From Roseibium sediminis (GTDB taxonomy: Bacteria > Pseudomonadota > Alphaproteobacteria > Rhizobiales > Stappiaceae): a DNA stretch of 64,000 nucleotides. The DNA lies in NCBI RefSeq assembly GCF_008711325.1, contig NZ_VXDB01000013.1, positions 1 through 64,000 of the forward strand. The letters are read 5' to 3'. The notes under the pieces were generated by a model that had not been told where the DNA came from, did no database searches, and was given only the letters and a program-made list of their open reading frames with translations. This document shows positions 1 through 17,913 of this stretch, one piece after another (the first letter of the stretch is position 1; each line of letters starts with the position of its first letter). Both the position numbers and the translations under genes were made by a program.

Positions 1-599
1 CAATCGGCTTCCTTGTCTGAAAGATCAGCGTACCTGCGTAACTCTTAAAACGTCCTAGCCTAAGCCAGAACCGCAAGACCCACGCCGCCTACGCTTCCCT
101 TCCTTCAAATATCAAATTGTCAATGAACATGAGACACAAATCTCACCAGGCTTACATCTCGTAAACTCAACAAAACCTATCAACCACCCAACCTTGCGAT
201 CAGGCCAATCAATCCGATTTTCCAGAATTTAGAGCGCAGCGCCCTGTCGCCAGCGACGTTGCCGCCGTCGATGAACCGGGTTATAGGCCCACCAACTCAC
301 CCAGTCAACAACCAAATCCAAAAAAATCAAACTTTCTCAAAAACAAACAAAAATACCCTGTGAACAACACGGGACAAAAGCAAGAAAATTTAATTGATTC
401 AATAGTTTAATCAAAGAAATGGGGGGGGTTTTTGACAGTGTGTGCCAGCTCAGAATGTGCGCTTTTGGGCCCTTATACGAGGCCGCCGCTGGGGCACTTG
501 CATCCGGGGTGTTTTTAGCCAGCGCTCGGCTTGGTCGAGGTACGGAGTTCTACCTGTTCAGAAGGCTTATGCCCTGGTTCGAGGGCGGCTCTTATTGGC
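1..599. other. Left-edge region without a recognisable gene
   Basis: I see no credible gene here. The first 420 bases are comparatively AT-rich with stops in all frames. A run of eight G residues lies at 421-428. A 66-codon frame from 419 has no recognisable family and no ribosome binding site, and I do not call it. The stretch lies downstream of the minus-strand hps/suy operon, so it should hold that operon's 3' end, but I found no clear hairpin plus T-tract. Confidence 0.5.
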
Positions 600-1610
600 T
601 CAGGTCCCATCGGCAATGATGGCTCGGATTGCCTGAATGTAGTGAAGAGGGACATCGAGACCGCCCTTTTCAGCCATCTTTCTGGTGGCAATTCGCCGGG
701 TTCCGGGCACGCGTGCGCCCTCCATCGCGGCGATTTCCTCCAGCATCTGCTGCAAACGGCCTTCAAAGCCGCTTTGGTCCATGGGTTTCATGGCGATCAG
801 GAACTGACCAACAGCTGGTGGAGGTCCGTCCGCTGAGAAAAACGACGACGCCTCAGTGCTGCGGGCTGCACCGACCATGACCGTAGAGAGGATCTCGACC
901 ATCAGGGCCAAGGCAGTTCCTTTGGCCTCGCCGATCGGGACCATCGTGCCTTCAAGCGCGGCGACGGGGTCCGTTGTTGGTTGCCCGTTCCGATCAAGTG
1001 CCCATCCTTCGGGGATCGGCTTGCCGCTCTTGCGGGCATTCATGATCTTGCCTCGCGCCACTTTAGACAAGGACAGGTCAATCACGAGAGGATCTGTCTC
1101 TCCGCGCGGCGCGGCAAAGGCAATGGGGTTCGTTCCGAAGATCGGCTCGTTGCCGCCCCATGGCGCCATTGAGGCCGGAGCGTTTGCAACCATGATGGCG
1201 ACCAGCCCCTTTCGAGCGAGCCTCTCCACCTGAATGGAAAGTGCTCCACAATGATGCGAGCGATAGATGCCCATCGTTGCGCAGCCATGCTTAAGCGCGA
1301 GATGCCCACCTTCTTCGATAGCGCGATCAAGGGCCGGGTAGGCAAAGCCATGTCCGGCGTCGACCAGAAGGCTCGTGGTTCCAGCCAGATGCGTGGATAC
1401 CTCGGCATTCGCCGCAATCTTCCCCGAACGGACCTGCGCTATATAATCCTCGACACGGGAAAATCCGTGCCCCACCTGACCTTCTGCCTCCGCCGTCACG
1501 AGTGCAACAGCGACGGACCGCGCTACGGGAGCGGGCACGGAGGCGGCACGGAAAGCGGCGTCCACAAGATCCGTTGCTTGTTGCACGCTCAGGTGTTCAG
1601 TGTCTGACAT
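600..1610 (-). CDS. comC: Ldh/malate-sulfolactate dehydrogenase family oxidoreductase (ComC-like)
   Basis: A 336-residue protein of the malate/L-sulfolactate dehydrogenase family (COG2055), an NAD(P)-dependent fold distinct from Rossmann dehydrogenases. Visible family segments are the 'GHGFAYPALDRAIEEG' region near residue 110 and 'MGIYRSHHCGALS' with the catalytic-region histidines near 140. 'PWGGNEPIFGTNPIAFAAP' follows near 180. In bacteria that degrade sulfolactate, ComC of this family is an NADP-dependent (R)-sulfolactate dehydrogenase interconverting sulfolactate and sulfopyruvate. It is the last gene of the minus-strand hps-suy operon, about 48 bp after suyB, and this context drives the assignment. 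The family also contains malate, ureidoglycolate and lactate dehydrogenases, so the fold is certain but the substrate is inferred. Confidence 0.72.
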   Translation of the reverse strand: MSDTEHLSVQQATDLVDAAFRAASVPAPVARSVAVALVTAEAEGQVGHGFSRVEDYIAQVRSGKIAANAEVSTHLAGTTSLLVDAGHGFAYPALDRAIEEGGHLALKHGCATMGIYRSHHCGALSIQVERLARKGLVAIMVANAPASMAPWGGNEPIFGTNPIAFAAPRGETDPLVIDLSLSKVARGKIMNARKSGKPIPEGWALDRNGQPTTDPVAALEGTMVPIGEAKGTALALMVEILSTVMVGAARSTEASSFFSADGPPPAVGQFLIAMKPMDQSGFEGRLQQMLEEIAAMEGARVPGTRRIATRKMAEKGGLDVPLHYIQAIRAIIADGT

Positions 1611-1658
1611 AATCAGGAATCCTTACGGGTGGTCAGGTCATGACCACCCATCTCAGGA

Positions 1659-2837
1659 TTATGCGCTTCGGTAAAGCTTGGTCATCGAGAATTCACGGTG
1701 ACCAAGTGCTTCGGCAGCCGTGTGACGCCCGTTGGCCGTGCGGCGGATCATGTCGATCAGCTCGTCACCAGCCTGGTCAATGGTCATTTCGCGGCGCAGG
1801 ATGCCGGAAACGTCCACGTCAACATGCTCTGCCATCGTGCGGACAGTTCGCGGATTGGCGGTGATCTTGATCACCGGCACGATCGGGTTGCCGATCACGT
1901 TGCCCTGCCCGGTCGGGAAGGTGTGGATCACCGCACCACCAGCTGCCATCAGCGTCACGCATTCAGCTGCAGCTGAAGAGCTGTCCATGAAATAGAGCCC
2001 CTTGCCGGATTGCGGCGCTTCCGCCGGACCCAAGATGTCGATGTACTGGGACGTGCGGCCGATCTTTTCCAGATTGCCGAGAGCCTTTTCCTCAATGGTG
2101 GTCAGGCCACCTTCGATGTTGCCCTTGGTCGGCTGGCTGTCGGAAAGGTCGTCTGTCTGGTGGGCGAAGATCACCTCGTCCTGATAGGCCTTCCACATCT
2201 TGTACCAGCGCTCGCCAACTTCCTCGTTGATCGCCCGCTTCTGACAAATGTGCTCTGCACCGGTGATTTCCGATGTTTCCCCGAAGAAGCCATAGATGCC
2301 TTCGGGAAGCAGTTTGTCGTACATGTTGCCGACGGTCGGGCAGGAACCGAGACCGGTGGTGGTGTCACTTTCTCCGCATTTGGTGGAAACCCAAAGCTCG
2401 GAGATGTTGCACTCTTCGCGCTGAAGTTCAGATGCCCAATGGACGTATTCCTTGGCTTTCCAGCTCGCCTGACGGATGGTTTCCAGATCGCCCTTCTGTT
2501 CGATAGAAATGCCCCAAACCGGCTTGCCGGTCTTGGCGATGCCATCAACGACGCGCTGGGTCCAGCCCGGCTCGATGCCGATCACGACGACAGCGGCTAC
2601 GTTCGGGTTCGCACCGGTGCCAATGATGGTGCGGAAATGAAGGTCCAGATCCTCACCAAACTGCAGGCGGCCATAGGCATGCGGAATGGCCATGGTGCCC
2701 TTGATGTTGTTGGCAACCGCCTCGCAGGCCGCGTTGGAAATATCATCCAGCGGCAGGATCACAACGTGATTACGGACACCGACACGACCATTTTCGCGCC
2801 GGTAACCCATGAAGGTCATGTTTGAATATTTCGACAT
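1659..2837 (-). CDS. suyB: (2R)-sulfolactate sulfo-lyase, large subunit (UxaA/altronate dehydratase C-terminal family)
   Basis: A 392-residue protein of the altronate/galactarate dehydratase large-subunit family. SuyAB cleaves (R)-sulfolactate to pyruvate and sulfite. Visible signatures are the N-terminal '[19 protein letters not shown]' segment and '[12 protein letters not shown]' near residue 150, where sugar-acid dehydratases have CGGSD(G). The glycine-rich '[18 protein letters not shown]' segment comes near residue 315. It lies 12 bp downstream of the small SAF-domain subunit, the normal split arrangement of sulfo-lyase (altronate dehydratase is usually one fused chain). The neighbouring HpsN-like, HpsO/P-like and ComC-like genes support sulfolactate over altronate. 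The alternative, a sugar-acid dehydratase, fits the context poorly. Confidence 0.85.
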
Positions 2838-2849
2838 GGCAGCAGCTCC

Positions 2850-3140
2850 TTACCAGCGCTTCGTCTTGCAGTTATGGGTATGCACGTGGCTGCCTTTCGG
2901 AATGTCGGCGATGATCTTGCCGATGTCCTCGCCATACTTGATCGCCGTATCGCCGTCTTTCAGGTCCTTGAGGGCAATCTTGTGCCCAATCGGCACATCA
3001 GCACCTGCGGTCAGGCGGAACGTCGAGTTGTCATGGGTGACACAGCACAGCATATCCGTGCCGGCTGTCAGCCCCTCGACAACGACCACACCGACATTAT
3101 CGGCGTGTTCATGCACGAGAAGGTGCGGGATTTCAGACAT
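2850..3140 (-). CDS. suyA: (2R)-sulfolactate sulfo-lyase, small subunit (SAF domain)
   Basis: A 96-residue stand-alone SAF domain, the size usual for SuyA. The fold is recognisable from 'HEHADNVGVVVVEGL' near residue 12, 'ADVPIGHKIALKDLKDGD' near 48 and 'KYGEDIGKIIADIPKGSHV' near 70. The C-terminal 'HVHTHNC' is the H-x-H-N motif typical of the N-terminal domain of UxaA-type dehydratases. Together with SuyB it forms the C-S bond-cleaving lyase releasing sulfite and pyruvate. The start overlaps the end of the upstream zinc dehydrogenase gene by 8 bp, which implies translational coupling. No sulfite dehydrogenase or sulfite exporter gene is visible in this window, so disposal of the sulfite must be encoded elsewhere. 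Confidence 0.85.
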   Translation of the reverse strand: MSEIPHLLVHEHADNVGVVVVEGLTAGTDMLCCVTHDNSTFRLTAGADVPIGHKIALKDLKDGDTAIKYGEDIGKIIADIPKGSHVHTHNCKTKRW

Positions 3141-4146
3141 CTTTGTCTCCTGTCATGTCTGGCTTGAGCAGTATTTTCGGAGAGGCAACGCGGCCGGACC
3201 GCAAATCGGCAAAGGCCGCTGCCCCTTCTGAAAGGAATCGGGTTTCAACCCAGTCGAGAGGCCCGAGGCGGCCATCGAAGATGGCTTTCGCCGTGGCCCG
3301 GAAATCCTCGACGGTGTAGGTGTAGGTTCCGATGAACGTGATTTCCTGAAGGGTCATGCGGCGGATATCGAGGCCGCCCTCCCCTGATCCGAGACCGATG
3401 TGGCTGATCACTCCGCCCGGACGGGTAACCGCCGAGGCAAGTTCGCGCGTCGGCGCATATCCAACGGCATCGATTACGAAATCAAAATGTCCCTCGGTCT
3501 TGACCTGTTCAGGTGTCAGGACACGCAGGCCGCACTTTCTTTGAAGGAAGGCGGAGCGGAGCGTATTCGGCTCTACGACGGTGATGTTGTCGATCCCTTG
3601 CGCCCCAAGGCAAAGAGCTGCCCCCAGACCGATGGCACCGCCACCGATTACAAGCGCGCGGGCTCCATCAGCATGGTCTCCCAACGCCCGTTTCCCAAGG
3701 CGCACGGCATGCCAACCGCAGGCCAGCGGCTCGACCAGCGCTGCCGCATCATCGGATGCATGGTCCGGCACCTCTTCCAGATTGGATACCGGCATGGCGA
3801 GGAATTCGGCAAATCCCCCCTCGCGCGGCGGCATGGAGATGATCTGCCGATTTGGACAGAGATTCTCCTGCTTGCGCAAACAGGCCGCGCAGGTACCGCA
3901 AGCAACGAGCGGATTGACCGTGACCCTTTGCCCGGCGTTCGGGCCTGATAGGACCGTTCCGGTAACTTCGTGGCCGAGGATCAACGGGGCAGGCCTGCGT
4001 TCGTCATGCCCGAGATAGGCATGCATGTCCGATCCACAGATACCGGTTGCGGCGACCTTGATCAGAACCTCACCTTCGCGAGGCACCGGATCTGCGGCAT
4101 CCTGATATCCGAGCTGTTCCGGACCGTTGTAAACCAGTGCTTTCAT
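3133..4146 (-). CDS. hpsP: Zinc-dependent medium-chain dehydrogenase, probable DHPS 2-dehydrogenase (HpsP-like)
   Basis: A 337-residue MDR-family alcohol dehydrogenase. The start at 4146 is preferred: it overlaps the upstream SDR stop as ATGA and has GGAGGG upstream. Catalytic-zinc ligands are visible in 'GICGSDMHAYLGHDE' (Cys) and 'LILGHEVTG' (His-Glu). The structural-zinc cysteines are in 'CGTCAACLRKQENLC', and the NAD(P) motif is 'ALVIGGGAIGLGAA'. In DHPS degraders, HpsO and HpsP are paired 2-dehydrogenases thought to interconvert the DHPS enantiomers through the 2-oxo compound. The O/P letters are assigned here from gene order N-O-P, which is an inference. By sequence alone it could be an L-idonate, sorbitol or threonine dehydrogenase. 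Confidence 0.75.
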   Translation of the reverse strand: MKALVYNGPEQLGYQDAADPVPREGEVLIKVAATGICGSDMHAYLGHDERRPAPLILGHEVTGTVLSGPNAGQRVTVNPLVACGTCAACLRKQENLCPNRQIISMPPREGGFAEFLAMPVSNLEEVPDHASDDAAALVEPLACGWHAVRLGKRALGDHADGARALVIGGGAIGLGAALCLGAQGIDNITVVEPNTLRSAFLQRKCGLRVLTPEQVKTEGHFDFVIDAVGYAPTRELASAVTRPGGVISHIGLGSGEGGLDIRRMTLQEITFIGTYTYTVEDFRATAKAIFDGRLGPLDWVETRFLSEGAAAFADLRSGRVASPKILLKPDMTGDKDV

Positions 4147-4904
4147 TTTGCGGTGAACCCTCCGTCGACCATGAGAACCTGCCCTGTCACGTAGTCTGAG
4201 GCAGGAGAGCATAGAAACAGAAGTGGGCCATCAATGTCTTCCAACCGCCCGTTGCGCCCGATGCAGGTCTGTGCCGCATTGCGAGCAGCCCGGTCCGCAT
4301 CGCCGAAGACGGCTGCGGTCAATTCTGTCGGAAAAAAACCCGGTCCGATGGCATTGGCCGTGATGCCATGCGCGGACCAGGCCTCGGCCATGGCCCGTGT
4401 CATCTGACCGACACCACCCTTGGAAGCGCCATAGGCGATCCCGCCGGGAAAGGCCCTTGTGGTTTGAAGCGAAGCAAAGTTGACGATACGGCCCCATCCT
4501 CTTTCTTTCATGGCAGGCACCAGTGCCTGAGACAGGAAGAAGGGGACCGTCAGATTGAGGGACAAGGTGATGTCCCATCCCTCTTCAGTCACGTCATCGG
4601 CTGCTTGCCGCGTGTTGATGCCCGCCGCATGCACAATGATGTCAGGCGCTCCGAAAGGAGCTGCGATGTCCGCTGCCAGCTTGCCAAGACCAGTGCGGTC
4701 AGACAGGTCCGCGACCACGGCCGCAGTCTCTCCCCCCGCCTCCGCTCGCCAGCTTTCCAGATCCGGCGCGCGTCTAGCGACGCCCACGACCTTGGCACCG
4801 CTACGCGCCAGGACGGTGGCCGCACGTCGCCCCAGTCCGGAGCTTGCTCCGGTCACACAGGCGATCCGGCCTGAAACATCAAAGAGGCTGGCGGATTGGC
4901 TCAT
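4143..4904 (-). CDS. hpsO: Short-chain dehydrogenase/reductase, probable DHPS 2-dehydrogenase (HpsO-like)
   Basis: A 253-residue classical SDR. The cofactor motif TGxxxGxG is at about residue 18 ('CVTGASSGLGRRAA'), the 'HAAGIN' NxxAG-like segment near 90, and the active-site YxxxK as 'YGASKGG' near 158. The terminal 'YVTGQVLMVDGG' is standard. Its start lies 2 bp from the hpsN stop and its stop overlaps the next gene as ATGA, so it is tightly embedded in the operon. By context it supplies one arm of the DHPS racemisation proposed for HpsO/HpsP. Sequence alone fits any gluconate 5-dehydrogenase-like SDR, so the substrate is inferred. Confidence 0.75.
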   Translation of the reverse strand: MSQSASLFDVSGRIACVTGASSGLGRRAATVLARSGAKVVGVARRAPDLESWRAEAGGETAAVVADLSDRTGLGKLAADIAAPFGAPDIIVHAAGINTRQAADDVTEEGWDITLSLNLTVPFFLSQALVPAMKERGWGRIVNFASLQTTRAFPGGIAYGASKGGVGQMTRAMAEAWSAHGITANAIGPGFFPTELTAAVFGDADRAARNAAQTCIGRNGRLEDIDGPLLFLCSPASDYVTGQVLMVDGGFTAK

Positions 4905-4905
4905 G

Positions 4906-6213
4906 TCACGCGCCCGCGGTCAGGTCGAATTGCTCGTCTGGAAAATACTTCTTCAGACGAATATCTGCCGTGCGCGCATGCCCTTCCATGCCTTCAAGAC
5001 GAGAGATGCGAGCCGTTGCAACAGCAACAGGCTTTGCACCTTCACGGGTTGCCCGCTGCCAGGTCACGATCTTCATGAACTTGTGAACGGACAGACCGCC
5101 GGTATAGGTGGCTGCGCCCGAGGTCGGCAGAACGTGGTTTGTGCCGGAAGCCTTGTCGCCGAATGCAACTGTCGTTTCCTCGCCAAGGAACAAGGACCCG
5201 TAGCAAGACAGGCGCCCCAACCACCAATCGAGATCCCTGGCCTGAACCGTCAGATGCTCCGGGGCATACTGGTCCGATGTTGCGGCCATGATTTCGCGAT
5301 CAGCGCACAGGATCACTTCTGCATAATCCCGCCATGCTGCGGCAGCGTTCTCCCGGTTGACGTCCGGAAGGTCTGCGATCAGCTCGGGAACAAGACGCAT
5401 GACCTCTTCCGCCAGCGCGCGGTTATCGGTAACCAGCCAGACCGGCGAGTTGTAGCCATGCTCTGCCTGTCCGACGAGATCGGCAGCGACTACCTCAGCA
5501 TCGGCTGTTTCATCTGCAAGGATCAGACTGTCGGTCGGTCCAGCGAACATGTCGATACCGACGCGGCCAAACAGGATACGCTTGGCTTCGGCAACGAACT
5601 GGTTGCCGGGACCGGCAAGGATATTTGCCTTGGGCAGGCCAAAGAGACCGAAGGCCATGGCAGCAACACCCTGCACACCGCCCATGGCGAGGATCTGATC
5701 CGCACCACACACCTTTGCGGCATAGACAATGGCCGGGTTGATACCGACGCCCGGCCGCGGCGGTGAACAGGCGATGATGTTCTTGCAGCCGGCGACCTTG
5801 GCGGTCGTGACGGTCATGATTGCCGACGCGATATGGCTGTAACGACCACCCGGGATGTAACAGCCGGCGGTATCGACCGGGATGCATTTTTGACCGGCAA
5901 TCAGGCCCGGAACCACTTCGATTTCGGTATCGTGGCAGCTTGCCCGCTGTGCTTCGGCAAAGCGCTTCACATTGGCAGCGGAAAACTCGATGTCACGCTT
6001 GAGTTTTTCCGGTACCAGAGCTGCGGCCGCCTCGATTTCGGCATCCGTCAGAAGGACGTTGCCTTCATACTTGTCGAACTTGGCGGCATATTCCTTTGCC
6101 GCCGCGTCGCCACCGGCCTCGATTGCTGTCAGGATTTCCTGCACGATCCGGGTCGTATCCGAAGCATCGCTTCGTGATGTCATGTTTGCTTTTTTCAAAT
6201 ACTCGACAGACAT
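4906..6213 (-). CDS. hpsN: Sulfopropanediol 3-dehydrogenase (HisD-family, HpsN-like)
   Basis: A 435-residue member of the histidinol dehydrogenase family. The Zn-binding and catalytic positions of HisD are retained: 'GQAEHGYNSP' (Gln249, His252), 'QYAPEHL' (Glu319, His320), 'GDKASGTNHVLPT' (Asp353, His360) and 'GGLSVHKFM' (His377). The nucleotide segment 'AGPGNQFVAEAKR' is also present. HpsN oxidises (R)-DHPS in two NAD-dependent steps to (R)-sulfolactate, just as HisD oxidises an alcohol to a carboxylate. No his genes are nearby, while a sulfolactate lyase is directly downstream, so histidine biosynthesis is unlikely. It starts 9 bp after the TRAP permease gene. Confidence 0.85.
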   Translation of the reverse strand: MSVEYLKKANMTSRSDASDTTRIVQEILTAIEAGGDAAAKEYAAKFDKYEGNVLLTDAEIEAAAALVPEKLKRDIEFSAANVKRFAEAQRASCHDTEIEVVPGLIAGQKCIPVDTAGCYIPGGRYSHIASAIMTVTTAKVAGCKNIIACSPPRPGVGINPAIVYAAKVCGADQILAMGGVQGVAAMAFGLFGLPKANILAGPGNQFVAEAKRILFGRVGIDMFAGPTDSLILADETADAEVVAADLVGQAEHGYNSPVWLVTDNRALAEEVMRLVPELIADLPDVNRENAAAAWRDYAEVILCADREIMAATSDQYAPEHLTVQARDLDWWLGRLSCYGSLFLGEETTVAFGDKASGTNHVLPTSGAATYTGGLSVHKFMKIVTWQRATREGAKPVAVATARISRLEGMEGHARTADIRLKKYFPDEQFDLTAGA

Positions 6214-6222
6214 GGGCCGGTC

Positions 6223-7554
6223 CTACTTGTAAGCGTCAGGGAGAAGGGTCGTGGAGATCTCGGGCACATAGGCGATGAGCAGCGTGACCCCGAGCATGAA
6301 GAACACGAAGGGCACGGCCCGCGCGGCGATCTTGAGGATGGATTCCCCAGTCAGGCCCGAGACGACGAAGAGATTGAGACCAAGCGGCGGTGTGATGAAA
6401 CCAACACCCAGGGCAGTGATCATCATGATGCAGAACTGGATCTCGTTCATGCCGATATTATCCGCCAGCGGCTTCAGGATCGGCGCGAGGATCACAATGT
6501 TCGGCGTTGTCTCCATGACACAACCGGCTGCAATCAGGATCGCGATCATCAGGAAGATCAGGATGGCCGGATTGTCGGTCAACGACGTCACGGAGTAGAC
6601 GAAGCCCTGCGGCACGCCCAAAATTGCCAGTGCCTGAGCAAGCGGCAGAGAGAAGGCGATGATCGGCAGGATAACCCCATTGACCTTGGCCGAGCTGACC
6701 AGCATCGCCGGAAAGTGAGCCAGCTTGAGCGTGCCGAGCAGGAAACCCATGGCAATGGTCACGACCACAGCGACCGCACCGGCTTCTGTCGGCGTCAGGC
6801 GTCCTGAGAAGATGCCGTAGAAGATAATCCCGGGGACGATGAACGCATACCAACCGGACTTCAGCGCCTTGGTGACATTTGCCCACCATTCACCAACGCT
6901 CATGCGCCCGCTGTCCTCATAGGAGTGAATGCGGTTCATGACGATGTTGGTGACAAGGATCGATACAAGGATCGCAATGCCGGGAATGAGTGCCGCCTGA
7001 AACAGGGTGGAGGCAGATATCCCGAGCACGAGGCCGATAATAATGTAAGCGATCGACGGTGGAATAAGGATACCGGTACAGGCACCCGCCGCCACCAGCG
7101 CACAGGCATAGGGGCGCGGGTATCCGCTTTCGACTAGACGGGCGATGGTCATGCGGCCAACGGCAGCAGCGCCCGCAGCGTCCGATCCGGAAATCGCCGA
7201 GAACATTCCGCAGACAAGAACTGTGGCCGAGCCAAAACCGCCCTTCGTCCAGCATGTCAGGGCTTCCGCGACATCCAGAAATTTGCGGCTGAGACCGGTG
7301 CGTACGAGCACGTCTCCGGTCAGGATGAACAGCGGAACCGCGGTCAGGGCAAAGTGATCGATGCCGTGAAACAGGCTCTCGCCGATCAGTGAGAGGGGAA
7401 GTGCGCCGGAGATGACCAGCATCGCGATTGCAGCGGCGCCAATGGCGGCCCAGACCGGGACGGCCAGTGCCACGAGCCCGACGAAGATCAGAACCGGGCC
7501 ATAGAAATCCCAGCCGAGTTCCACCGATTGGTCCTGAAGGTGTTGCCAAAGCAT
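6223..7554 (-). CDS. dctM: TRAP transporter large permease subunit (DctM), DHPS operon
   Basis: A 443-residue, very hydrophobic protein of the DctM/TRAP large permease family, about 12 membrane helices. Family segments are 'ALTAVPLFILTGDVLVRTGLS' early, 'FGSATVLVCGMFSAISGSDAAGA' near residue 120 and 'FITPPLGLNLFVVSGLTGES' near 395. It forms the sodium-driven translocation unit with the small DctQ subunit 13 bp upstream and the periplasmic DctP protein. Its location directly before hpsN makes DHPS or sulfolactate the likely substrate. In several DHPS degraders the TRAP genes have been called hpsKLM, a naming I apply only by analogy. Confidence 0.85.
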   Translation of the reverse strand: MLWQHLQDQSVELGWDFYGPVLIFVGLVALAVPVWAAIGAAAIAMLVISGALPLSLIGESLFHGIDHFALTAVPLFILTGDVLVRTGLSRKFLDVAEALTCWTKGGFGSATVLVCGMFSAISGSDAAGAAAVGRMTIARLVESGYPRPYACALVAAGACTGILIPPSIAYIIIGLVLGISASTLFQAALIPGIAILVSILVTNIVMNRIHSYEDSGRMSVGEWWANVTKALKSGWYAFIVPGIIFYGIFSGRLTPTEAGAVAVVVTIAMGFLLGTLKLAHFPAMLVSSAKVNGVILPIIAFSLPLAQALAILGVPQGFVYSVTSLTDNPAILIFLMIAILIAAGCVMETTPNIVILAPILKPLADNIGMNEIQFCIMMITALGVGFITPPLGLNLFVVSGLTGESILKIAARAVPFVFFMLGVTLLIAYVPEISTTLLPDAYK

Positions 7555-7567
7555 GTTTCAGCCCCCC

Positions 7568-8083
7568 TCAGTCAAACAGCTTGTCGCCTTCATAAACGGC
7601 ATTGCCGTTTCGAAGGTCGCGCAAGTCACGAAGAAGGGACTGGATCAGCCGGATGATAACCAGCGTGAAACCAACGGGAACAGCCAGCAGGAACCAGACT
7701 TGCGAAATGCGCAGGCCGTGGGTCACCGATCCGAACTTGGCAGAGACGAGCACCGTTTCCATTGAGTAGTAAACGGCGACAACAGCCACGGCGAGCATCA
7801 CGAGATCGCCAAAGATATAGAGAAGTGCCTTCGCCTGCGGCCCTGCATAGTGCATCAGCACGTCGATGCGAATGTGGCCACGCTCCTTGACGGCTGCGGC
7901 CGCGCCGATCCACGCAAGATAGATGAAGCTGTAGCGGACGATTTCCTCTCCCCAGATGGAGGAGTAGGCAAACACTTCACGCCGAACCACTTCTATGAAC
8001 ATGGTCAGCACAATCATGACGTAGAACACGAGCAGCGCCCATCGCTCGGCGTTCTGATCCAGGGCATGCAGAATTCTTGACAT
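7568..8083 (-). CDS. dctQ: TRAP transporter small permease subunit (DctQ), DHPS operon
   Basis: A 171-residue protein with four predicted membrane helices, the usual DctQ size. The start at 8083 is chosen because GGGGGAGAGG lies just upstream; a longer frame from 8122 would add a charged 13-residue extension with no ribosome binding site. Helix 1 begins at 'ALLVFYVMIVLTMFIEVV', and the conserved 'KERGHIRIDVL' segment follows near residue 65. It bridges the substrate-binding protein and the large permease. The gap to dctP (about 108 bp) is the largest in the operon and contains a stem-loop. Confidence 0.82.
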   Translation of the reverse strand: MSRILHALDQNAERWALLVFYVMIVLTMFIEVVRREVFAYSSIWGEEIVRYSFIYLAWIGAAAAVKERGHIRIDVLMHYAGPQAKALLYIFGDLVMLAVAVVAVYYSMETVLVSAKFGSVTHGLRISQVWFLLAVPVGFTLVIIRLIQSLLRDLRDLRNGNAVYEGDKLFD

Positions 8084-8154
8084 AGCCTCTCCCCCTTCGG
8101 CACGGCGTAATTGACCGCCCACCGAAGCCCGTGGCTCTCAAAAAAGGAATGAAT

Positions 8155-8178
8155 GGGCCGAAGACGAAGCTCCGGCCC
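8155..8178 (-). promoter_or_regulatory. Stem-loop after dctP (mRNA-stabilising or attenuator hairpin)
   Basis: On the minus strand an arm GGGCCG pairs with CGGCCC, extended inward by three pairs including one G-U, around a six-base loop. About nine bases later comes a run of six T (8140-8145). It lies 13 bp after the dctP stop and before dctQ. Such hairpins often lower expression of membrane subunits relative to the abundant binding protein. It could act as a leaky terminator. Confidence 0.55.
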
Positions 8179-8191
8179 GAATAGATGCCGA

Positions 8192-9334
8192 TCAGGCGTC
8201 GTGGACGTAGTAGCGACCACGGGTGTTTGCGGCGTCTTCCAAACGTGCGAATGCTTCCATGGACCCGGCCAGATCGACCTTGAACTGGTCCCACTCGGAA
8301 CGCTGGTAGCCACCGGTGTCCTGCCATTCGGCCAACTGGTCCTCGGACAGGGAATGGAACTCCACGCCTGCCTTGGTAAGTTCGGACATTGCGTAGGAAC
8401 GGGCGGCCGGAACCTTGGCAAGGTTCTGCTGCGAGGTCACTTCGCCGGCAAACTCGATACCTTCCTGCACGTCTGCAGGCAGGCTGTTGAACCACTCGAG
8501 GTTCATCGAATAGACCTGACTGTCCGGAACAGCCTGAGTGAAGGTGACGTGGCTCAGGATATCCTTGAAGCCAAAGACATACAGCGCGCCAACGGACGGA
8601 TCGAGCGCATCTGCAACACCCTGCTTGATCGCGGATGGTGTTTCACCCCAGGCAACCGGCGTCGGGTTCGCGCCGACCATGCGGTAGTATTGCTGCAGCA
8701 TGGCAGAGCCCGGTACGCGGAACTTCACCCCATCCAGATCTTTCGGCGTGATGACAGCATTGCCACCCTTGCGAACGGCGACAACACGCGGGTCGATCAC
8801 GACATAGAACAGGGCCTTGAAGCCGGAGGCTTCCACCTTCGGGTGGACTTCCTTTTTCCAGGCGTCGGAAGTTACAAGATTCGTGAAGCGCTGGTTGGAA
8901 CCGCAGAAATACGGCATGTTGATCAAGTCAACAGCAGATGCGAACGGCGCAAAGTTGGACAGCGAGTGCTGAGCTGCCTGAATGGTACCGCTCTGCACGG
9001 CCTGAGCCAGAGCACCACCGGCGCCGAGCTGACCGCCTGGAGCGAGCTTTACATAAACTTTGCCGTTGGTCGCGTTCTGGATATTTTCCTTCAGGTCCAG
9101 CTGCATGATCGGGTAGCTGCGGGACGCGCCGAGCACGTAGGCGGTCGCAATTGTCATTACATGAGCAGCAGCTGCCTCACGCTCACGCTCTTCCTTGGCG
9201 GTCTGCGCAGCAGCTTCATCTGACCAGAGAACTCCTCCAGCTCCTGCCACCAAGGCAGCCGTGAACCCGCCGGTTCCGGCAAGTTTCATAAAATTACGAC
9301 GCTCGGCCGACTTCAGCTCGTTTCTATCGGTCAT
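8192..9334 (-). CDS. dctP: TRAP transporter substrate-binding protein (DctP), Tat-type signal, DHPS operon
   Basis: A 380-residue periplasmic substrate-binding protein of the TRAP DctP family. It starts 'MTDRNELKSAERRNFMKLAG': the RRNFMK segment followed by a mild hydrophobic stretch and an 'AAAQ' end fits a twin-arginine export signal rather than a Sec signal. Mature features include 'DLKENIQNATNGKVYVKLAPGG' and the late 'LDGVKFRVPG', where the conserved arginine usually binds the substrate acid group. Being part of the hps operon, it probably captures DHPS or sulfolactate. Substrate is inferred from neighbours only. Confidence 0.82.
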   Translation of the reverse strand: MTDRNELKSAERRNFMKLAGTGGFTAALVAGAGGVLWSDEAAAQTAKEEREREAAAAHVMTIATAYVLGASRSYPIMQLDLKENIQNATNGKVYVKLAPGGQLGAGGALAQAVQSGTIQAAQHSLSNFAPFASAVDLINMPYFCGSNQRFTNLVTSDAWKKEVHPKVEASGFKALFYVVIDPRVVAVRKGGNAVITPKDLDGVKFRVPGSAMLQQYYRMVGANPTPVAWGETPSAIKQGVADALDPSVGALYVFGFKDILSHVTFTQAVPDSQVYSMNLEWFNSLPADVQEGIEFAGEVTSQQNLAKVPAARSYAMSELTKAGVEFHSLSEDQLAEWQDTGGYQRSEWDQFKVDLAGSMEAFARLEDAANTRGRYYVHDA

Positions 9335-9360
9335 TACATTCCTCCCAGTTTCACTCGCAT

Positions 9361-9543
9361 TCAGTTGCTCGCTTCGTGCTCGTCCTCCTCCTTCTTAAGA
9401 ACGGCCACCACAAAGGCGATCGACGTCGCAAACAACAAAATCATTTCGCCAACGCTACCCAGGAAGGGAGAGCCTCCGAATGAACCAATCGTGACGTTGA
9501 CCAGGAAAACGGCAAAGAATGCCATTGACAACAAGAGCAACAT
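9361..9543 (-). CDS. 60-residue membrane protein at the head of the DHPS TRAP operon
   Basis: A small hydrophobic protein with two predicted helices: 'MLLLLSMAFFAVFLVNV' at the N-terminus and 'VGEMILLFATSIAFVVAVL' after a glycine-rich turn. It ends in the charged tail 'KKEEDEHEASN'. The ATG at 9543 is chosen because a perfect GGGAGG lies 5 bp upstream; a 14-residue longer frame has no such signal. It is 26 bp before dctP and directly behind the palindromic operator, so it is the first gene of the operon. I do not recognise a named family. A TRAP accessory or assembly role is possible but is only inference from position. Confidence 0.7.
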   Translation of the reverse strand: MLLLLSMAFFAVFLVNVTIGSFGGSPFLGSVGEMILLFATSIAFVVAVLKKEEDEHEASN

Positions 9544-9583
9544 AAACACCTCCCAGCACCCGCATAACCTCGCGGCAATTGCC

Positions 9584-9601
9584 AATGTAAGCGCTTACAT
9601 T
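9584..9601. promoter_or_regulatory. Perfect 18-bp palindrome, probable LacI-family (HpsR) operator
   Basis: AATGTAAGCGCTTACATT is a perfect inverted repeat with the central CG of LacI-family operators. It lies 41 bp before the small membrane protein gene and 95 bp before the divergent LacI-type gene. A 10-bp palindrome GGCAATTGCC (9574-9583) adjoins it. A looser inverted repeat GGCAAGC-N8-GCTTGCC (9608-9629) follows on the regulator side. The sites probably control both divergent units. Confidence 0.75.
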
Positions 9602-9695
9602 TCGATTGGCAAGCGGGAAATTGCTTGCCCATCACACCAAGCAATGTATTCAAGGACCATGCGGTGCATGGCGACACCGGACGAAGCAGGTTTGA

Positions 9696-10733
9696 ATGAT
9701 GACAACGGGACCAACAAAGAGGGAAACCTCCATTCCGACGCTGGCGGACGTGGCGCGTGAAGCAAACGTATCCACGGCGACCGTTTCGCGTTGTCTCAAC
9801 ACACCAAGTCAGGTGTCCAAGCAAACGCTTGACCATGTGATGGCAGCAGTTGATCGACTGGGGTATGCGCCGAACTTCAGTGCACGTGCGCTTGCCGCCC
9901 GACAAACCAAGACCATCGGCGCCATCATTCCGACCATGGAAAACGCGATTTTTGCCCGCGGCATTCAGGCATTTCAGGAACGGCTGCGCGATCACGGCTT
10001 CACTCTGTTGGTTGCCAGCTCGTCCTACCAGACTGACATTGAAGACGAACAAATCCGCACGTTGACGGCGCGCGGGGCCGATGCCTTGTTGCTGATCGGC
10101 TATCATCGGAATGAGGCCCTCTACGAGTTTTTGGAAAAGCGGAACGTGCCTGCGCTGATTGCATGGGCATGCGACCCCTCCTCGCAGCGCCCGGCCATCG
10201 GCTTCAACAACCGCCATGCGATGAAGCTGCTGGCAGACGAAGTTCTGAAGAAGGGCCATCGACGACTTGCCTTCATCTCTGCACCAACTGCCTCCAACGA
10301 CCGTGCATTGAACCGTGTCGAAGGTGTCCGCAATGCGCTGGTGGCCTTTGGCCTTGATCCGGCCGGGATGCCGATCATCGAGACGCCCTACTCCATCGAG
10401 AACGGCGAACGGGCCTGCGCGACGTTCCTTGATCTTGATCCAAGGCCCACAGCGATCATGTGTGGTAACGACGTTCTGGCCGTCGGCGCCCTGCGCGCTG
10501 CCATTCAACGCGGGTTGCGTGTTCCCGAGGACATCTCGATTACCGGCTTTGATGATATCGAACTGGCAAGTGTTGCACCGGTTCCCTTGACAACCGTGCA
10601 TGTTCCGCACCGACGGATGGGCAAGCAGGCAGCCGATATCCTTGTGCAGATGCTCAAGGGCGAAGCGCCCCATCCGCATACGGAACTCGATACGGAAATC
10701 TGTTATCGCGGGACACTTGGCCCCGCGATCTGA
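9696..10733 (+). CDS. hpsR: LacI-family transcriptional regulator, probable HpsR
   Basis: A 345-residue LacI/GalR regulator. The N-terminal helix-turn-helix is clear at about residues 14-40 ('TLADVAREANVSTATVSRCL'), followed by the hinge 'NFSARALAARQTKTIG' and a periplasmic-binding-like sensor domain. The C-terminal 'ITGFDDIELASVAPVPLTTV' is typical. It is divergent from the hps TRAP/suy operon with a perfect palindromic operator in between. A LacI-type HpsR is known in the DHPS cluster of Cupriavidus, so the role as a DHPS-responsive repressor is likely. ATG at 9696 or 9699 are both possible, and neither has a strong ribosome binding site. Its 3' end converges with the next operon, only 22 bp away. 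Confidence 0.82.
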   Translation: MMTTGPTKRETSIPTLADVAREANVSTATVSRCLNTPSQVSKQTLDHVMAAVDRLGYAPNFSARALAARQTKTIGAIIPTMENAIFARGIQAFQERLRDHGFTLLVASSSYQTDIEDEQIRTLTARGADALLLIGYHRNEALYEFLEKRNVPALIAWACDPSSQRPAIGFNNRHAMKLLADEVLKKGHRRLAFISAPTASNDRALNRVEGVRNALVAFGLDPAGMPIIETPYSIENGERACATFLDLDPRPTAIMCGNDVLAVGALRAAIQRGLRVPEDISITGFDDIELASVAPVPLTTVHVPHRRMGKQAADILVQMLKGEAPHPHTELDTEICYRGTLGPAI

Positions 10734-10755
10734 TCCGCCAGACATTTGTCGATTG

Positions 10756-13197
10756 TCAGACCTTTACCCGCTCGGACTTCGGATCGTACATGGGCTTCAA
10801 GGACGCCTCGGCCTTCACCCGCACGCCCGCGATCTCGATCTCGTAGCTGGATGCCAGAAGCTCTTCGGCACTCTCGCCCTTGCATGGCAGATATCCCATG
10901 CCGACCGCGCCGCCCAGCGCGTGACCATAACTTCCGCTGCTCAGAAAGCTGACGACCTCGCCGTCCCGAATGATGGGTTCGGCGTGATAGAGCATCGGTT
11001 CGGGGTCTATCAGCAGGAACTGCACGAGCCGCTTTTCCAGTCCGTCATCCTGCTTGCGCAGTACAGCGTCGCGTCCGAGAAAATCCGGTTTTGATTTCTT
11101 GACCGCAAAACCGAGACCCGCTTCCAAAACGTGGTCCTCGCAAGTGATGTCATGACCAAAATGGCGGAACGCCTTTTCGATGCGGCAAGAGTCCATCATG
11201 TGCATGCCGCAGAGCCTTGCATTCATTTCCTGTCCGGCTTCCCACAACGTTTCGAACACGTGCGCGGCCATATCTGAGGACACGTAGATCTCCCAGCCGA
11301 GTTCCCCGACATACGTCACCCGGTGTGCCCGGGCGAGACCCATGCCGATCTCGATTGGTTGCGCGGTCCCGAACGGATTTGTCTCATTGCTAAAGTCATT
11401 TGGCGAGATGGCCTGAAGAAGCCTGCGGGAATTGGGGCCCATGACAGCCATCACGGCCTCTCCGGCCGTCACATCGGTGATCACGACGCGATGGTCTCCG
11501 GCATGGCGTCGCAGCCAGGTTTCATCTGCCAGTCGGGTCGCGGCCGGAGTGACCACGAGGTATGCGGTTTCCGACAAGCGGGTCACCGTCACATCGGCCT
11601 CTATACCGCCACGCGAGTTCAGGAATTGGGTGTAGACGATCTTGCCGACAGGAACGGAGTAATCTCCGCCGCCGACATAGTTGAGAAACGCCTCCGCATC
11701 CGGCCCCTCTACCCTGATCTTGCCGAAGGAGGACATATCGTAGATACCGATATTCTCGCGGATGGCCATGTGCTCGCGAGCTGCGTTATCAAACCAGTTC
11801 TGGCGCTTCCAGGAGTAGCGATATTCGCGCTCCTGACCTTGGTCCGCGTACCAGTTGGCGCGCTCCCATCCCGCCAGCTCTCCGAAAACCGCTCCGCGCG
11901 CTTTCAGATGTTCATGCAAGGGCGTCCGCCGAACGCCTCTGGCCGTTGCCTTCTGGCGATAGGGGAAGTGATCAGCATAGAGCAACCCCAGCGTTTCCTT
12001 TGAGCGTTCGAACAGATAGTGCTTGTTGCCCTGAAACGGTTGCATGCGGGAGATATCAACGTCGCCGAGATCAAACGGCTTCTGCCCGCTGTCCATCCAT
12101 TCCGCCAAAGCCATGCCGGCGCCGCCAGCCGACTGGATGCCGATCGAGTTGAACCCCGCAGCCACCCAGACATTATCCATTTCCGGTGCGAGCCCGAGGA
12201 GATAGGCATCGTCGGGTGTGAAGCTCTCCGGGCCATTGAAGAAGGTATGAATACCCACCTCGCCCAGCAACGGCATGCGATTGATCGCAGCCTCCAGAAT
12301 GGGTTCGAAATGATCGAAGTCCTCAGGAAGCTGATCAAACTCGAAACTGTCAGGAATGCCGTCCATCCCCCATGGCTTTGCGTTGGGCTCAAAAGCCCCC
12401 AGCAGCATCTTGCCTGCGTCTTCCTTATAGTAGGCGCATTCGTCCGGCACCCGCAGAACCGGCAGGCGCCCCAGACCCGGAATACCATCGGTGACAATAT
12501 AGAAGTGCTCGCACGCATGAAGCGGCACATTGACGCCCGCCATCCGGCCCACCTCGTGCCCCCACATGCCGCCGCAATTGACAACGTAGTCGCACTCGGT
12601 GAACCCGTTTTCGCCCTCTGCCTGCCAATCGACACCCAGGACGCGCCGACCTTCCTTGCGAATGCCGGTAACCTTGACCCGCTCCAGCACCTTGGCCCCG
12701 CCCATGCGAGCACCCTTTGCCAGCGCATGGGCGATATTGGCCGGGTCACCCTGACCATCCAGCGGCAGGAACACCCCGGCCACAACATCGCCGGTGTTCA
12801 GATGCGGGTATTTTTCCTTCACTTCGGCGGGAGTGATTTCCCCCACCTCCACCCCGAAGGCCCTCGCCATGGACGCTTGGCGGAAGATTTCCTCCTTGCG
12901 CTCTTCTGTAAGAGCCACGGTAATTGACCCGCAACGGCGGAACCCGGTCGCAACGCCGGTTTCCTCTTCAAGCCGCCCATAGAGTTCCTGGCTGTATTTC
13001 GCCAGCCGGGTCATGTTCTGGGTCGCCCGAAGCTGGGCAATCAGACCTGCCGCATGCCAGGTCGTCCCCGCTGTCAGCTGCTTACGTTCCAGCAGCACAA
13101 CATCGGTCCATCCCTTTTTTGTCAGGTGATAGGCGACAGAGCAGCCAACAACACCGCCGCCAATGATGACGACACGGGCTTTGGAAGGAGGCGTCAT
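10756..13197 (-). CDS. Dimethylglycine/sarcosine dehydrogenase-like flavoprotein with GcvT domain (copy 2)
   Basis: An 813-residue protein with an N-terminal DAO-type FAD domain ('IIGGGVVGCS' at residues 11-20) and a C-terminal GcvT/aminomethyltransferase domain from about residue 430. The segment 'TAGTTWHAAGL' (Trp47-His48) matches the site where dimethylglycine dehydrogenase carries covalent 8-alpha-histidyl FAD. The family oxidatively removes an N-methyl group and passes the formaldehyde-level carbon to tetrahydrofolate in the GcvT domain. It is the last gene of a minus-strand operon with an MttB-family gene and a paralog of exactly the same length. Exact substrate (dimethylglycine, sarcosine or another N-methyl amino acid) is unknown. 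Confidence 0.82.
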   Translation of the reverse strand: MTPPSKARVVIIGGGVVGCSVAYHLTKKGWTDVVLLERKQLTAGTTWHAAGLIAQLRATQNMTRLAKYSQELYGRLEEETGVATGFRRCGSITVALTEERKEEIFRQASMARAFGVEVGEITPAEVKEKYPHLNTGDVVAGVFLPLDGQGDPANIAHALAKGARMGGAKVLERVKVTGIRKEGRRVLGVDWQAEGENGFTECDYVVNCGGMWGHEVGRMAGVNVPLHACEHFYIVTDGIPGLGRLPVLRVPDECAYYKEDAGKMLLGAFEPNAKPWGMDGIPDSFEFDQLPEDFDHFEPILEAAINRMPLLGEVGIHTFFNGPESFTPDDAYLLGLAPEMDNVWVAAGFNSIGIQSAGGAGMALAEWMDSGQKPFDLGDVDISRMQPFQGNKHYLFERSKETLGLLYADHFPYRQKATARGVRRTPLHEHLKARGAVFGELAGWERANWYADQGQEREYRYSWKRQNWFDNAAREHMAIRENIGIYDMSSFGKIRVEGPDAEAFLNYVGGGDYSVPVGKIVYTQFLNSRGGIEADVTVTRLSETAYLVVTPAATRLADETWLRRHAGDHRVVITDVTAGEAVMAVMGPNSRRLLQAISPNDFSNETNPFGTAQPIEIGMGLARAHRVTYVGELGWEIYVSSDMAAHVFETLWEAGQEMNARLCGMHMMDSCRIEKAFRHFGHDITCEDHVLEAGLGFAVKKSKPDFLGRDAVLRKQDDGLEKRLVQFLLIDPEPMLYHAEPIIRDGEVVSFLSSGSYGHALGGAVGMGYLPCKGESAEELLASSYEIEIAGVRVKAEASLKPMYDPKSERVKV

Positions 13198-13219
13198 GAC
13201 GAGGTCTTTCCTGTCTTGA

Positions 13220-14788
13220 TTAGATCGCAGCGCTTTCGGGACGTTTCAGTTCGGCAAGGGGAAGGCCTGACGCTCTCAGCGCGGCTTCGGTCGCCGGGTC
13301 AATCTGGTGCCCGTCCTCGCTCAGGATTGCCTTGAGACGCGCGTTGGCTGTGTCCAGCAATCGCGGTTGGCCGCGTTCCACCCATTCCTTCGGGCTGAAG
13401 CGGTCGGCAACTTCCGGATAGACGTACTCCGTCTGCATCAACTCCAGCGTCTGCGCGTGGCCGAGATAGTGACCGGGCCCCTGAAGAACGACCTGCTTCA
13501 TGACGCTGATATCGACGAACTCGTCCCGCACCTCGACGCCGCGCACGCAGCGCTGAACCTGACCCAGCATGTCATTGCCCAGAACAAGGGATTCAAGACA
13601 GAATCCCAGGAGCGAGGCATGCATTCCCACGGCCTCATAGACCATATTGAGGCCTGACAAACCGGTCATCACATTGCTGATCGCCTGCTCCCAACCCGCC
13701 TGCATATCGGGTAGTTTGGAATCGGCGATCCCCGCCGCCGCTCCGCCCGGAAGGCCGTAGAACTGGTGCATTTGCGCGCAAGCTGCACTCAACAGAGCCT
13801 GTTCGCCGCTGCCTCCGGACATGGCCCCGGTTCGAAGATCGCTGACAAAAGGCCATGTTCCGAAGATTGCCGGGTGGCCCGGCTTCATGGCGTTGACATA
13901 GACAACGCCAGCCAGACACTCGGCAACCGCCTGAACAACCGCCGTTGCAATCGGCGCTGGTGCCGTTGCTCCCGCTTGCCCGGCGGAAAGCAGCAGAACA
14001 GGCATGCCGCCGCGAATACAGGCTTCCATCACTTCGCAGCTTTCCTCCGCAAAAGTCAGCGGCGGCACAACGAAACAGTTGGAATTGGAGACAAACGGAC
14101 GCTCTCGCCACGCTTGCTCACTTCCGGCGAGGATATGGAGCATTTCCATGGCCTTGCCGACATTATGGGTGTTGATGAAGGATACGCCGACATGTTTCGT
14201 CGTTCCGGCACAGGCGCCATAAAGCGTGTTCAGGTCCAACTCGATCGATGACTCGAACTCCCGGCACACGACAGGCCGTTGGTAGAAATGGACGTTGCCG
14301 AGCTTTTGCACGACCCGCGCCGCATCATACATGTCCTGAACGGTCGGATTTCGATAGTCACCGGTGAAGGGATCGACGATATGCACCGCCGCCCCCGCCG
14401 TTCCATAGTGAACATTGGTTCCGTGCAGGTGCAGATCAAATTTGGGATCGCGGCCATGCAGTGTGATGTTGCGCGCGGCCTTGCCCAACATGTCCTCCAC
14501 CAGAGACCGGGAGAACCGGATACGGCCATCCTCCCCTTCCGTCGCACCGGCCTCGGTCAGGATCTTGCGCCCGGATGCAGGAGCCTTGCCCATACCGATG
14601 ACCTCGAGAGCCTGAAGCGCGGCCTCGTTGATCCGTTTGACATCGGCTTCCGACAAGGGCCGGTATTGCCCGCCCGGCAAACCGGGGCGAACGGGACGAA
14701 CGGCCTCGTCCAATGGACGGGCCCGTGCAGCCGTCCGGGCAGCTCGCCCACCGGACCGGCGTCTTTGCTTTACATCACCTTCGGACAT
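13220..14788 (-). CDS. Trimethylamine methyltransferase (MttB) family protein, non-pyrrolysine type
   Basis: A 522-residue MttB-superfamily protein with no in-frame amber codon, so it is the non-pyrrolysine branch. This branch includes glycine betaine and other quaternary-amine methyltransferases. After a basic N-terminal tail the domain begins at 'SEADVKRINEAALQALEVIG' near residue 47. Family segments include 'NVHYGTAGAAVHIVDPFTG' near 125 and 'GMPVLLLSAGQAGATAPAP' near 260. GGAGGG precedes the ATG. Known members pass a methyl group to a corrinoid protein, but no corrinoid protein or reductive activase gene is visible in the window. Being between two dimethylglycine-dehydrogenase-like genes suggests demethylation of a betaine. 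The acceptor is an open question. Confidence 0.78.
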   Translation of the reverse strand: MSEGDVKQRRRSGGRAARTAARARPLDEAVRPVRPGLPGGQYRPLSEADVKRINEAALQALEVIGMGKAPASGRKILTEAGATEGEDGRIRFSRSLVEDMLGKAARNITLHGRDPKFDLHLHGTNVHYGTAGAAVHIVDPFTGDYRNPTVQDMYDAARVVQKLGNVHFYQRPVVCREFESSIELDLNTLYGACAGTTKHVGVSFINTHNVGKAMEMLHILAGSEQAWRERPFVSNSNCFVVPPLTFAEESCEVMEACIRGGMPVLLLSAGQAGATAPAPIATAVVQAVAECLAGVVYVNAMKPGHPAIFGTWPFVSDLRTGAMSGGSGEQALLSAACAQMHQFYGLPGGAAAGIADSKLPDMQAGWEQAISNVMTGLSGLNMVYEAVGMHASLLGFCLESLVLGNDMLGQVQRCVRGVEVRDEFVDISVMKQVVLQGPGHYLGHAQTLELMQTEYVYPEVADRFSPKEWVERGQPRLLDTANARLKAILSEDGHQIDPATEAALRASGLPLAELKRPESAAI

Positions 14789-14821
14789 GAATAGCCCTCC
14801 AACCCCTCAGCCAAATGCATT

Positions 14822-17263: not shown

Positions 17264-17287
17264 GTAGGCTCCCTCTCCAGAGCTTTG

Positions 17288-17845
17288 TCAGTATACCGGC
17301 GGCGAAATGACCCAGATCGCCACAGCCGGTTCCGAATATGGATTTTCCCAGCGAAACGAAGCATCGCGAATGCGAAAGCTGTCTCCCGCCTCGATGGTGA
17401 AGACATCATCGTTCAGCCAGATATCGAGCTTGCCCGAGACCAGATAGGCCACTTCCTGCGTGGGCCGGCGCGTCATTTCCCTTCGCGCAGATCCTGGCTG
17501 GAAAGTGGAATGGATCATCTCGAAACTGTCTGTCAGGTCCGGCGAGATCAGGGTTTCCACGAGCCCCCGGTCGCGCTCGCCGATCACCCGCCTCGCGCTG
17601 GCGCGCACCACGCGTCCACGTTCGTTTTCCGGCGCGACTGCGTTCCCGAAGAAAAGCGAAAGGGGAACCTCGAAGACATCGGCGATCAGGCGCAGATCCG
17701 ACATGCGGGGAATGGAAATGTCCCGTTCGACCTGTGACAACCAGCCGACAGACCGACCCAGTCTTTGTGCCAATTCCTCAAGCGTGACCTTTCGCGCTGT
17801 TCTGAGCGCGCGCAGGTCTTCGCCAAGGCTGTTGGTTTCTGTCAT
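17288..17845 (-). CDS. XRE-family regulator with C-terminal cupin domain
   Basis: A protein of about 185 residues. The helix-turn-helix is at the N-terminus ('LGEDLRALRTARKVTLEELA' then 'RSVGWLSQVERD') and a small-molecule-binding cupin is at the C-terminus ('VAYLVSGKLDIWLNDD', 'IEAGDSFRIRD'). Regulators of this layout (PuuR-like) commonly sense amines, amino acids or betaines. The ATG at 17845 (MTETN) is chosen over one 12 codons upstream because the family usually starts close to the HTH. It is the first gene of the operon that continues into the flavoprotein and MttB-family genes. A long inverted repeat lies just upstream, suggesting autoregulation. Confidence 0.82.
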   Translation of the reverse strand: MTETNSLGEDLRALRTARKVTLEELAQRLGRSVGWLSQVERDISIPRMSDLRLIADVFEVPLSLFFGNAVAPENERGRVVRASARRVIGERDRGLVETLISPDLTDSFEMIHSTFQPGSARREMTRRPTQEVAYLVSGKLDIWLNDDVFTIEAGDSFRIRDASFRWENPYSEPAVAIWVISPPVY

Positions 17846-17884
17846 GAATGGCCGCCATGAAATTTTGGCCATTTTTTTCACGTA

Positions 17885-17913
17885 TGATGAAAATCACAAG
17901 ATGATTTTCATCA
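17885..17913. promoter_or_regulatory. Long inverted repeat upstream of the XRE-cupin gene, probable operator
   Basis: TGATGAAAATCA (17885-17896) and its exact reverse complement TGATTTTCATCA (17902-17913) are separated by 5 bp. The 29-bp element lies about 40 bp upstream of the chosen start, in an AT-rich promoter region. A dimeric HTH regulator, most simply the XRE-cupin protein itself, is the likely ligand. Confidence 0.6.

Follow-up and report, generated by a model that had tools for sequence, protein, structure and literature searches.

Does the importer of 2,3-dihydroxypropane-1-sulfonate (DHPS), a tripartite ATP-independent periplasmic (TRAP) transporter, consist of three components, or does a fourth belong to it? 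The question is raised by a locus of Roseibium sediminis within positions 1 to 64,000 of NZ_VXDB01000013.1, with which contig C22 of an almost complete 5.0-Mb genome begins; this whole stretch of 64,000 nucleotides is called the window. DHPS is an abundant algal sulfur compound. The locus is very probably a LacI-regulated operon for the import and breakdown of DHPS, with one small protein, HpsX, as a likely accessory of the importer. An earlier note on this DNA had described a tightly packed operon divergent from a LacI gene, and the genes that it named are indeed intact open frames, about where it placed them. The same order recurs in named relatives and is thus not due to chance, and the operon is an ordinary member of a kind of DHPS locus that is familiar in marine bacteria. 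The set of TRAP, hps, suyAB, and comC genes was already known. What is new here is that a fourth gene, hpsX, travels with hpsK and the other two TRAP component genes, hpsL and hpsM.

hpsX (a provisional name; 9361..9543) is a frame of 60 codons between the LacI gene and hpsK, and it is the first gene of the operon, all of which lies on the minus strand. It was absent from the earlier note. The ATG is preceded by GGGAGG, and the 60-residue product, a membrane protein, is modeled by AlphaFold as two helices, residues 2–23 and 30–59, with a mean predicted local distance difference test score (pLDDT) of 93 (34 sequences). An iterated profile, started from the protein of the window, finds HpsX in all 37 hpsR–hpsK intergenic regions. 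When one locus without hpsR is added, together with five plasmid clusters that were not used for training, HpsX is present in 43 of 43 sequences with hpsK, a count that is not independent of the profile since 37 of the 43 trained it. Sequences longer than 5 kb that carry hpsN or hpsR but not hpsK have no HpsX (0 of 14, one of which, L085, has its start within hpsN; loci too short to accommodate hpsK were excluded). The HpsX members share invariant residues, and the protein is under purifying selection. The ratio of nonsynonymous to synonymous differences per site (pN/pS) stays under 1 in every one of the 899 usable pairs, with a median of 0.52 at pS near saturation, and it is 0.25 in the 37 pairs with pN below 0.2.

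An order-wide scan of 397 genomes, which may overlap with the named loci, found HpsX in at least 27 and hpsK in at least 29; these are lower bounds, as at most the first 16 candidates per genome were scored for HpsX and at most 4 for hpsK. All 27 HpsX genomes are hpsK-positive, and HpsX lies directly upstream of hpsK in each; the copy in G228 is 58 bases away. Away from an hpsK-type gene, the best frame among 28,588 scored 7.9 bits. hpsK-like proteins occur in 20 plasmid records (E 1e-20), and the HpsX of the window matches 15 plasmid records, beside hpsK by coordinates in every one. The Rhodovulum copies are beyond the reach of BLAST, and the profile scored two of them at 32–33 bits. No HpsX was found at a Variovorax hpsK-like protein (30%), which is outside any hps cluster. 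All five of the further plasmid TRAP-hps clusters annotate a 'hypothetical protein' at the hpsX position. Downstream, three of them have comDE, one has suyAB, and one has neither, so hpsX tracks the importer and not the sulfo-lyase. Among the annotated TRAP-hps clusters compared here, hpsX is recorded as a 'hypothetical protein' in six and as a major facilitator superfamily (MFS) protein in one.

Could HpsX be a general feature of TRAP systems? The genome itself has 26 DctP matches (25 genes, with neighboring C106 pieces taken as one). None of the 21 non-hpsK DctP genes that were checked has a hydrophobic frame of 35–110 codons within 400 bases upstream, with three genes on L218–L221 left out. 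In L203 and L219 a hydrophobic frame follows the DctP gene; it looks spurious, and for L219 the reading was made on the wrong strand. With the profile, a single HpsX turns up in this genome.

This co-occurrence makes it most likely that the DHPS TRAP importer has HpsX as an accessory or a fourth membrane component. PpSiaQM (nonfused) and HiSiaQM (fused) are likewise built from P, Q, and M components, and the portions of that account available to us describe no separate small fourth membrane protein; in fused transporters the scaffold is enlarged by an additional helix that lies between Q and M, whereas nonfused ones are without that helix (PMC10942642). HpsL and HpsM are separate proteins, and therefore a two-helix partner could serve a purpose like that of the fusion helix. 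A more specific proposal, to which we give slightly less than an even chance, is that DHPS TRAP importers are four-part systems, in which HpsX would be a dedicated two-helix subunit that binds Q and M, themselves separate proteins, and might extend the elevator scaffold or aid the docking of HpsK; it would also be ancient enough for Alphaproteobacteria and a haloarchaeal sulfonate cluster to have it in common. If HpsX does belong to the importer, it would be an exception to the three-part rule for TRAP transporters, and HpsKLM expressed or reconstituted alone may fail or mislead.

Several observations weigh against a role of HpsX in the importer, in addition to the dependence of the 43-locus count on its own profile. 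In G110, the hpsK match begins at the first base of the contig and HpsX was not seen. The HpsX candidates are weak in G088 (16.3 bits, E 0.011, 72 bases before an hpsK of 57–58% identity) and at the second hpsK of G248 (15.9 bits, E 0.014). In Pfam and NCBIfam, the HpsX of the window has no match over cut-off, and for other members these libraries give weak and scattered matches to membrane proteins (best E 0.0011); the PDB gives no match. HpsX was not found in the open-access literature that was searched, including the accessible portions of PMC10130141, PMC4334477, PMC10942642, and PMC5812351, and published accounts of hpsKLM, in the portions available, do not mention it. The haloarchaeal match, a distant one that otherwise favors a link with the importer, is a single case with a modest score. 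It lies in Haloarcula pelagica plasmid NZ_CP126163.1 (135048–143852; L223 4440–13244), in a cluster like those for DHPS and sulfolactate catabolism, with HpsK (55%), HpsL (45%), HpsM (51%), an HpsN-like protein (41%) with GHFTH, SuyA- and SuyB-like proteins (38% and 35%), a short-chain dehydrogenase/reductase (SDR), and a gene of the sulfate-exporter type. A hypothetical gene of 93 residues behind hpsM is picked up by the HpsX profile (18.7 bits, E 0.002, 28,588 frames), and the SuyB-like protein of this cluster is no nearer than dehydratases.

Helper genes are frequent in operons, and HpsX might instead serve some other task in the membrane, for example the handling of sulfite or of the membrane stress that comes with growth on sulfonates, and merely be cotranscribed with the importer. 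A UspA gene, and in some cases a sulfate/sulfite exporter gene too, follows comC in many relatives, which fits such a helper; in the window the contig ends at that point, and an exporter homologue (53%) is found on contig C62. However, HpsX accompanies hpsK whether suyAB or comDE is downstream, and it is missing from hps-suyAB loci without hpsK, so we give this alternative a modest chance at best and prefer HpsX as a part of the importer.

The three classical importer genes follow hpsX. Residues 44–380 of HpsK, the substrate-binding protein (8192..9334), score 694 bits to PDB entry 24gc, which is named a DHPS TRAP transporter. HpsL (7568..8086) is the small permease, with Pfam DctQ, and HpsM (6223..7554) is the large permease, with Pfam DctM and an NCBIfam dctM match over cut-off. 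By analogy with homologues, HpsK would capture DHPS in the periplasm and HpsLM would import it. The earlier note had seen the embedded TRAP system as something that sets this locus apart, and this we reject. In Ruegeria pomeroyi, DHPS is known to be imported by hpsKLM, which is described there with hpsR and hpsNOP (PMC4334477), and an hpsK (SPO0591) mutant is reported to be impaired on DHPS, with changes of 78.6% in growth and 64.8% in drawdown (PMC10130141). In Roseobacteraceae, hpsO, hpsP, and hpsN are described as often lying in one operon together with a regulator and transporters for DHPS (PMC11131964). A search with the comC-like protein found 110 relatives, of which 80 loci were kept, and hpsN, hpsO or hpsP, hpsK, and suyAB occur together in 33 of the 80; with the window and one plasmid record added, this is 35 of 85 classed sequences, some of the others being cut by contig ends. 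The mutant-tested hpsKLM serves as a marker of marine carbon and sulfur flow.

What happens to DHPS once it is inside the cell? HpsO (4143..4904), an SDR-type R-DHPS dehydrogenase, scores 436 bits to 8wwf and keeps S145, Q147, Y158, and K162 at the same positions. HpsP (3133..4146), a Zn-dependent S-DHPS dehydrogenase, scores 436 bits to 8wwd and keeps H59, E60, and E139. These are residues whose mutation is reported to lower activity, and HpsP is described as converting S-DHPS to sulfolactaldehyde (PMC11131964). SuyB (1659..2837), the large subunit, shares 68% identity with the protein that occupies the suyB position in a Cupriavidus pinatubonensis hps cluster (strain HN-2), and SuyA (2850..3140), the small subunit, is 45% identical to its counterpart there. 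SuyB-like matches in 91 plasmid records split into 13 at 62% identity or more and 78 below 60%, the highest among the latter listed being 39.8%, and the two other SuyB matches of the genome are at 32% and 35%. SuyB thus groups with SuyB proteins and apart from the genome's other UxaA-like proteins, as the earlier note had proposed, and we reject altronate dehydratase on this evidence. SuyA has no Pfam match, and NCBIfam gives it just a weak galactarate-dehydratase match; nine of the ten proteins scanned have the Pfam families expected of them. Given the SuyB match, the split in plasmid records, and the distant paralogues, a sulfolactate sulfo-lyase is the sound reading, and SuyAB is predicted to be the separate-subunit R-sulfolactate sulfo-lyase and to release sulfite.

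Judged by characterized homologues, HpsN would oxidize R-DHPS to R-sulfolactate and SuyAB would cleave R-sulfolactate to pyruvate and sulfite, so that the route from R-DHPS through R-sulfolactate to pyruvate and sulfite is fully encoded in the operon. This is the part of the earlier claim of an uninterrupted route from DHPS to pyruvate and sulfite that holds; the S-DHPS branch is incomplete. HpsO and HpsP would oxidize R-DHPS and S-DHPS, respectively, to sulfolactaldehyde, for which a further dehydrogenase, not in the operon, would be needed. The S-DHPS branch requires the sulfolactaldehyde dehydrogenase GabD-2 and then an S-specific S-sulfolactate dehydrogenase. The operon has neither a sulfolactaldehyde dehydrogenase nor SlcC, and GabD-2 was not searched for in the genome.

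The last gene of the operon encodes a comC-like dehydrogenase (600..1610; Pfam Ldh_2, 313 bits), with its best named matches in Roseibium and Labrenzia. The earlier note had listed the appended gene as a difference from the C. pinatubonensis cluster; it is common in relatives, although these were gathered by searching with the comC-like protein itself. Paracoccus, Methylobacterium, and Bosea carry Ldh genes of this family next to slcC and suyAB. Among 85 comC-like proteins placed in a tree, that of the window pairs with that of Labrenzia alba, and gene context is clustered on the tree (7 changes vs 21.3 shuffled). What is its function? Reduction of sulfopyruvate to R-sulfolactate is most likely, and this would open a way to SuyAB for S-sulfolactate or other sources of sulfopyruvate. 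This direction is favored because no ComE in the genome is over cut-off (39.6 of 221.5 bits), although an Xsc is present over the curated cut-off. Two results count against the assignment. The protein falls below the curated cut-offs for L-sulfolactate dehydrogenase (NF040650, 183 of 500 bits, a model of the L enantiomer that does not test R-sulfolactate activity) and ureidoglycolate dehydrogenase (185 of 356). Furthermore, no clear SlcC was found in the genome, the best homologues being at 40–43%, which weakens a role in two-step racemization together with SlcC. An oxidative enzyme sending sulfopyruvate to ComDE and Xsc would fit the presence of Xsc, but we consider this outlet unlikely given the lack of a passing ComE match and the presence of SuyAB in the same operon.

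On the other side of hpsX lies hpsR (9696..10733, plus strand), with LacI and periplasmic-binding Pfam domains, divergent from the operon. Between them, TGTAAGCGCTTACA at 9586..9599 is a perfect palindrome and the sole match of the pattern TGTAANCGNTTNCA in the window, where 0.01 matches are expected. The pattern is present in 37 of the 37 hpsR–hpsK regions compared, in which hpsR adjoins the hpsK side of the operon, and in 17 it is doubled at a spacing of 22 bases. It is also present in five of the seven loci with hpsR but without hpsK and was not found in the other two, L074 and L079. The palindrome would suit LacI-type binding and is likely the HpsR operator; HpsR probably represses from it until DHPS or a product is present. 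As hpsX sits at the head of the operon, below this palindrome, the small frame might be a leader peptide or a regulatory stretch between the operator and hpsK. This is very unlikely, since selection acts on the protein (pN/pS of 0.25 in close pairs), some of whose residues are invariant, the ribosome-binding site is good, and the model with two helices is confident; moreover, the Haloarcula match sits behind hpsM, and the seven hpsR loci without hpsK have no HpsX.

The identification of the locus as a DHPS operon leads back to HpsN (4906..6213), a protein of 435 residues and the predicted R-DHPS 3-dehydrogenase. Against the solved R-DHPS dehydrogenase 8wwe, HpsN reaches 723 bits, and against the C. 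pinatubonensis enzyme 545, compared with 257 for the best histidinol dehydrogenase. It carries GRYSH at 123–127, including the sulfonate-contacting His, and the motif GRY[A/S]H is described as diagnostic for HpsN (PMC11382572). The catalytic Glu, His, and Asp are conserved as E319, H320, and D353 (numbering of CpHpsN + 1), and so is H360. The genome has a separate HisD elsewhere, 36% identical to HpsN and without GRYSH. The earlier proposal that this protein is HpsN and not HisD is therefore borne out by motif, scores, and the separate HisD. General family models do assign names of the HisD and UxaA type, and the hisD model even exceeds its cut-off, but a true histidinol dehydrogenase next to an altronate or galactarate dehydratase, with no sulfonate locus at all, has practically no chance against these results and the SuyB identity given above. 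Within the family, 31 of 87 genomes encode a close HpsN. A further HisD/HpsN paralogue (G000:C31:25515–26786; L124 8486–9826), 48–49% identical to HpsN, has PGGKFPMV in place of GRYSH; its neighbors, read without a domain search, look like ATP-binding cassette (ABC) transporter, SDR, and LacI-type genes.

The locus resembles three known systems. Like hpsRKLMNOPQ-slcD of R. pomeroyi DSS-3, it has a LacI regulator, the TRAP genes hpsKLM, and hpsN, hpsO, and hpsP in the same order (PMC4334477, PMC10130141, PMC11131964). Unlike the window, with suyAB and a comC-like gene downstream, DSS-3 has UspA and slcD there, and it is placed on the CuyA route (PMC11382572). The R. pomeroyi gene table, compared as a table and not as DNA, lists no small gene before hpsK in the portion available. 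The window shares hpsR, hpsNOP, and suyAB with the C. pinatubonensis cluster hpsRNOUP-suyAB (PMC11382572; comparator, plasmid p2 of strain HN-2), at 38–68% protein identity, and in HN-2 a similar palindrome precedes hpsN, as it precedes the operon of the window. The importer of this cluster is of the MFS type on plasmid p2, in contrast to the TRAP system of the window, just as the earlier note had said; in addition, no comC-like gene is annotated there and HpsX was not found. In the slcC-comC-suyAB clusters of Paracoccus versutus, Methylobacterium, and Bosea, suyAB is accompanied by an Ldh_2 protein that is 47–55% identical. Such clusters, including that described for Paracoccus wurundjeri (PMC12421959), pair slcC with the Ldh_2 gene, while the operon of the window has no slcC.

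The genes from hpsL to comC overlap or are 1–48 bases apart, with the starts of hpsP and hpsL set at 4146 and 8086, both downstream of the longest-frame starts. The gap between hpsK and hpsL is 105 bases and contains a GC-rich hairpin (8155..8178, minus strand). An uninterrupted stem of at least 7 bp occurs here in 41 of 43 loci, in 41 distinct sequences, with a median z score of −3.1 against plain base shuffles, and a hairpin with a T run occurs in just nine of the 43. The GC-rich hairpin is probably no more than the usual kind of mRNA element that follows a binding-protein gene. Sigma-70-like sites are fewer than in shuffles (2 vs 3.7), and terminator-like sites are slightly above them (13 vs 9.5, standard deviation 3.1).

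At the other end, the contig probably breaks at a ribosomal RNA (rRNA) operon just behind comC, because the edge of contig C95 repeats bases 1–129 of the window at 98%. An Rfam search of bases 1–20000 found no rRNA at the contig edge. By our own reading, bases 1–300 of the window resemble an rRNA leader. Beyond hpsR, 10756–17263 (minus strand) holds an MttB-family methyltransferase gene flanked by two DAO/GCV_T (dimethylglycine dehydrogenase-like) genes. In the MttB region, Rfam places PYLIS_3 at 13630–13728, in a frame without an internal stop. Further on, at 21589–25852 (minus strand), a second TRAP system is represented by DctM and DctP genes, which adjoin a DAO-type oxidoreductase gene.

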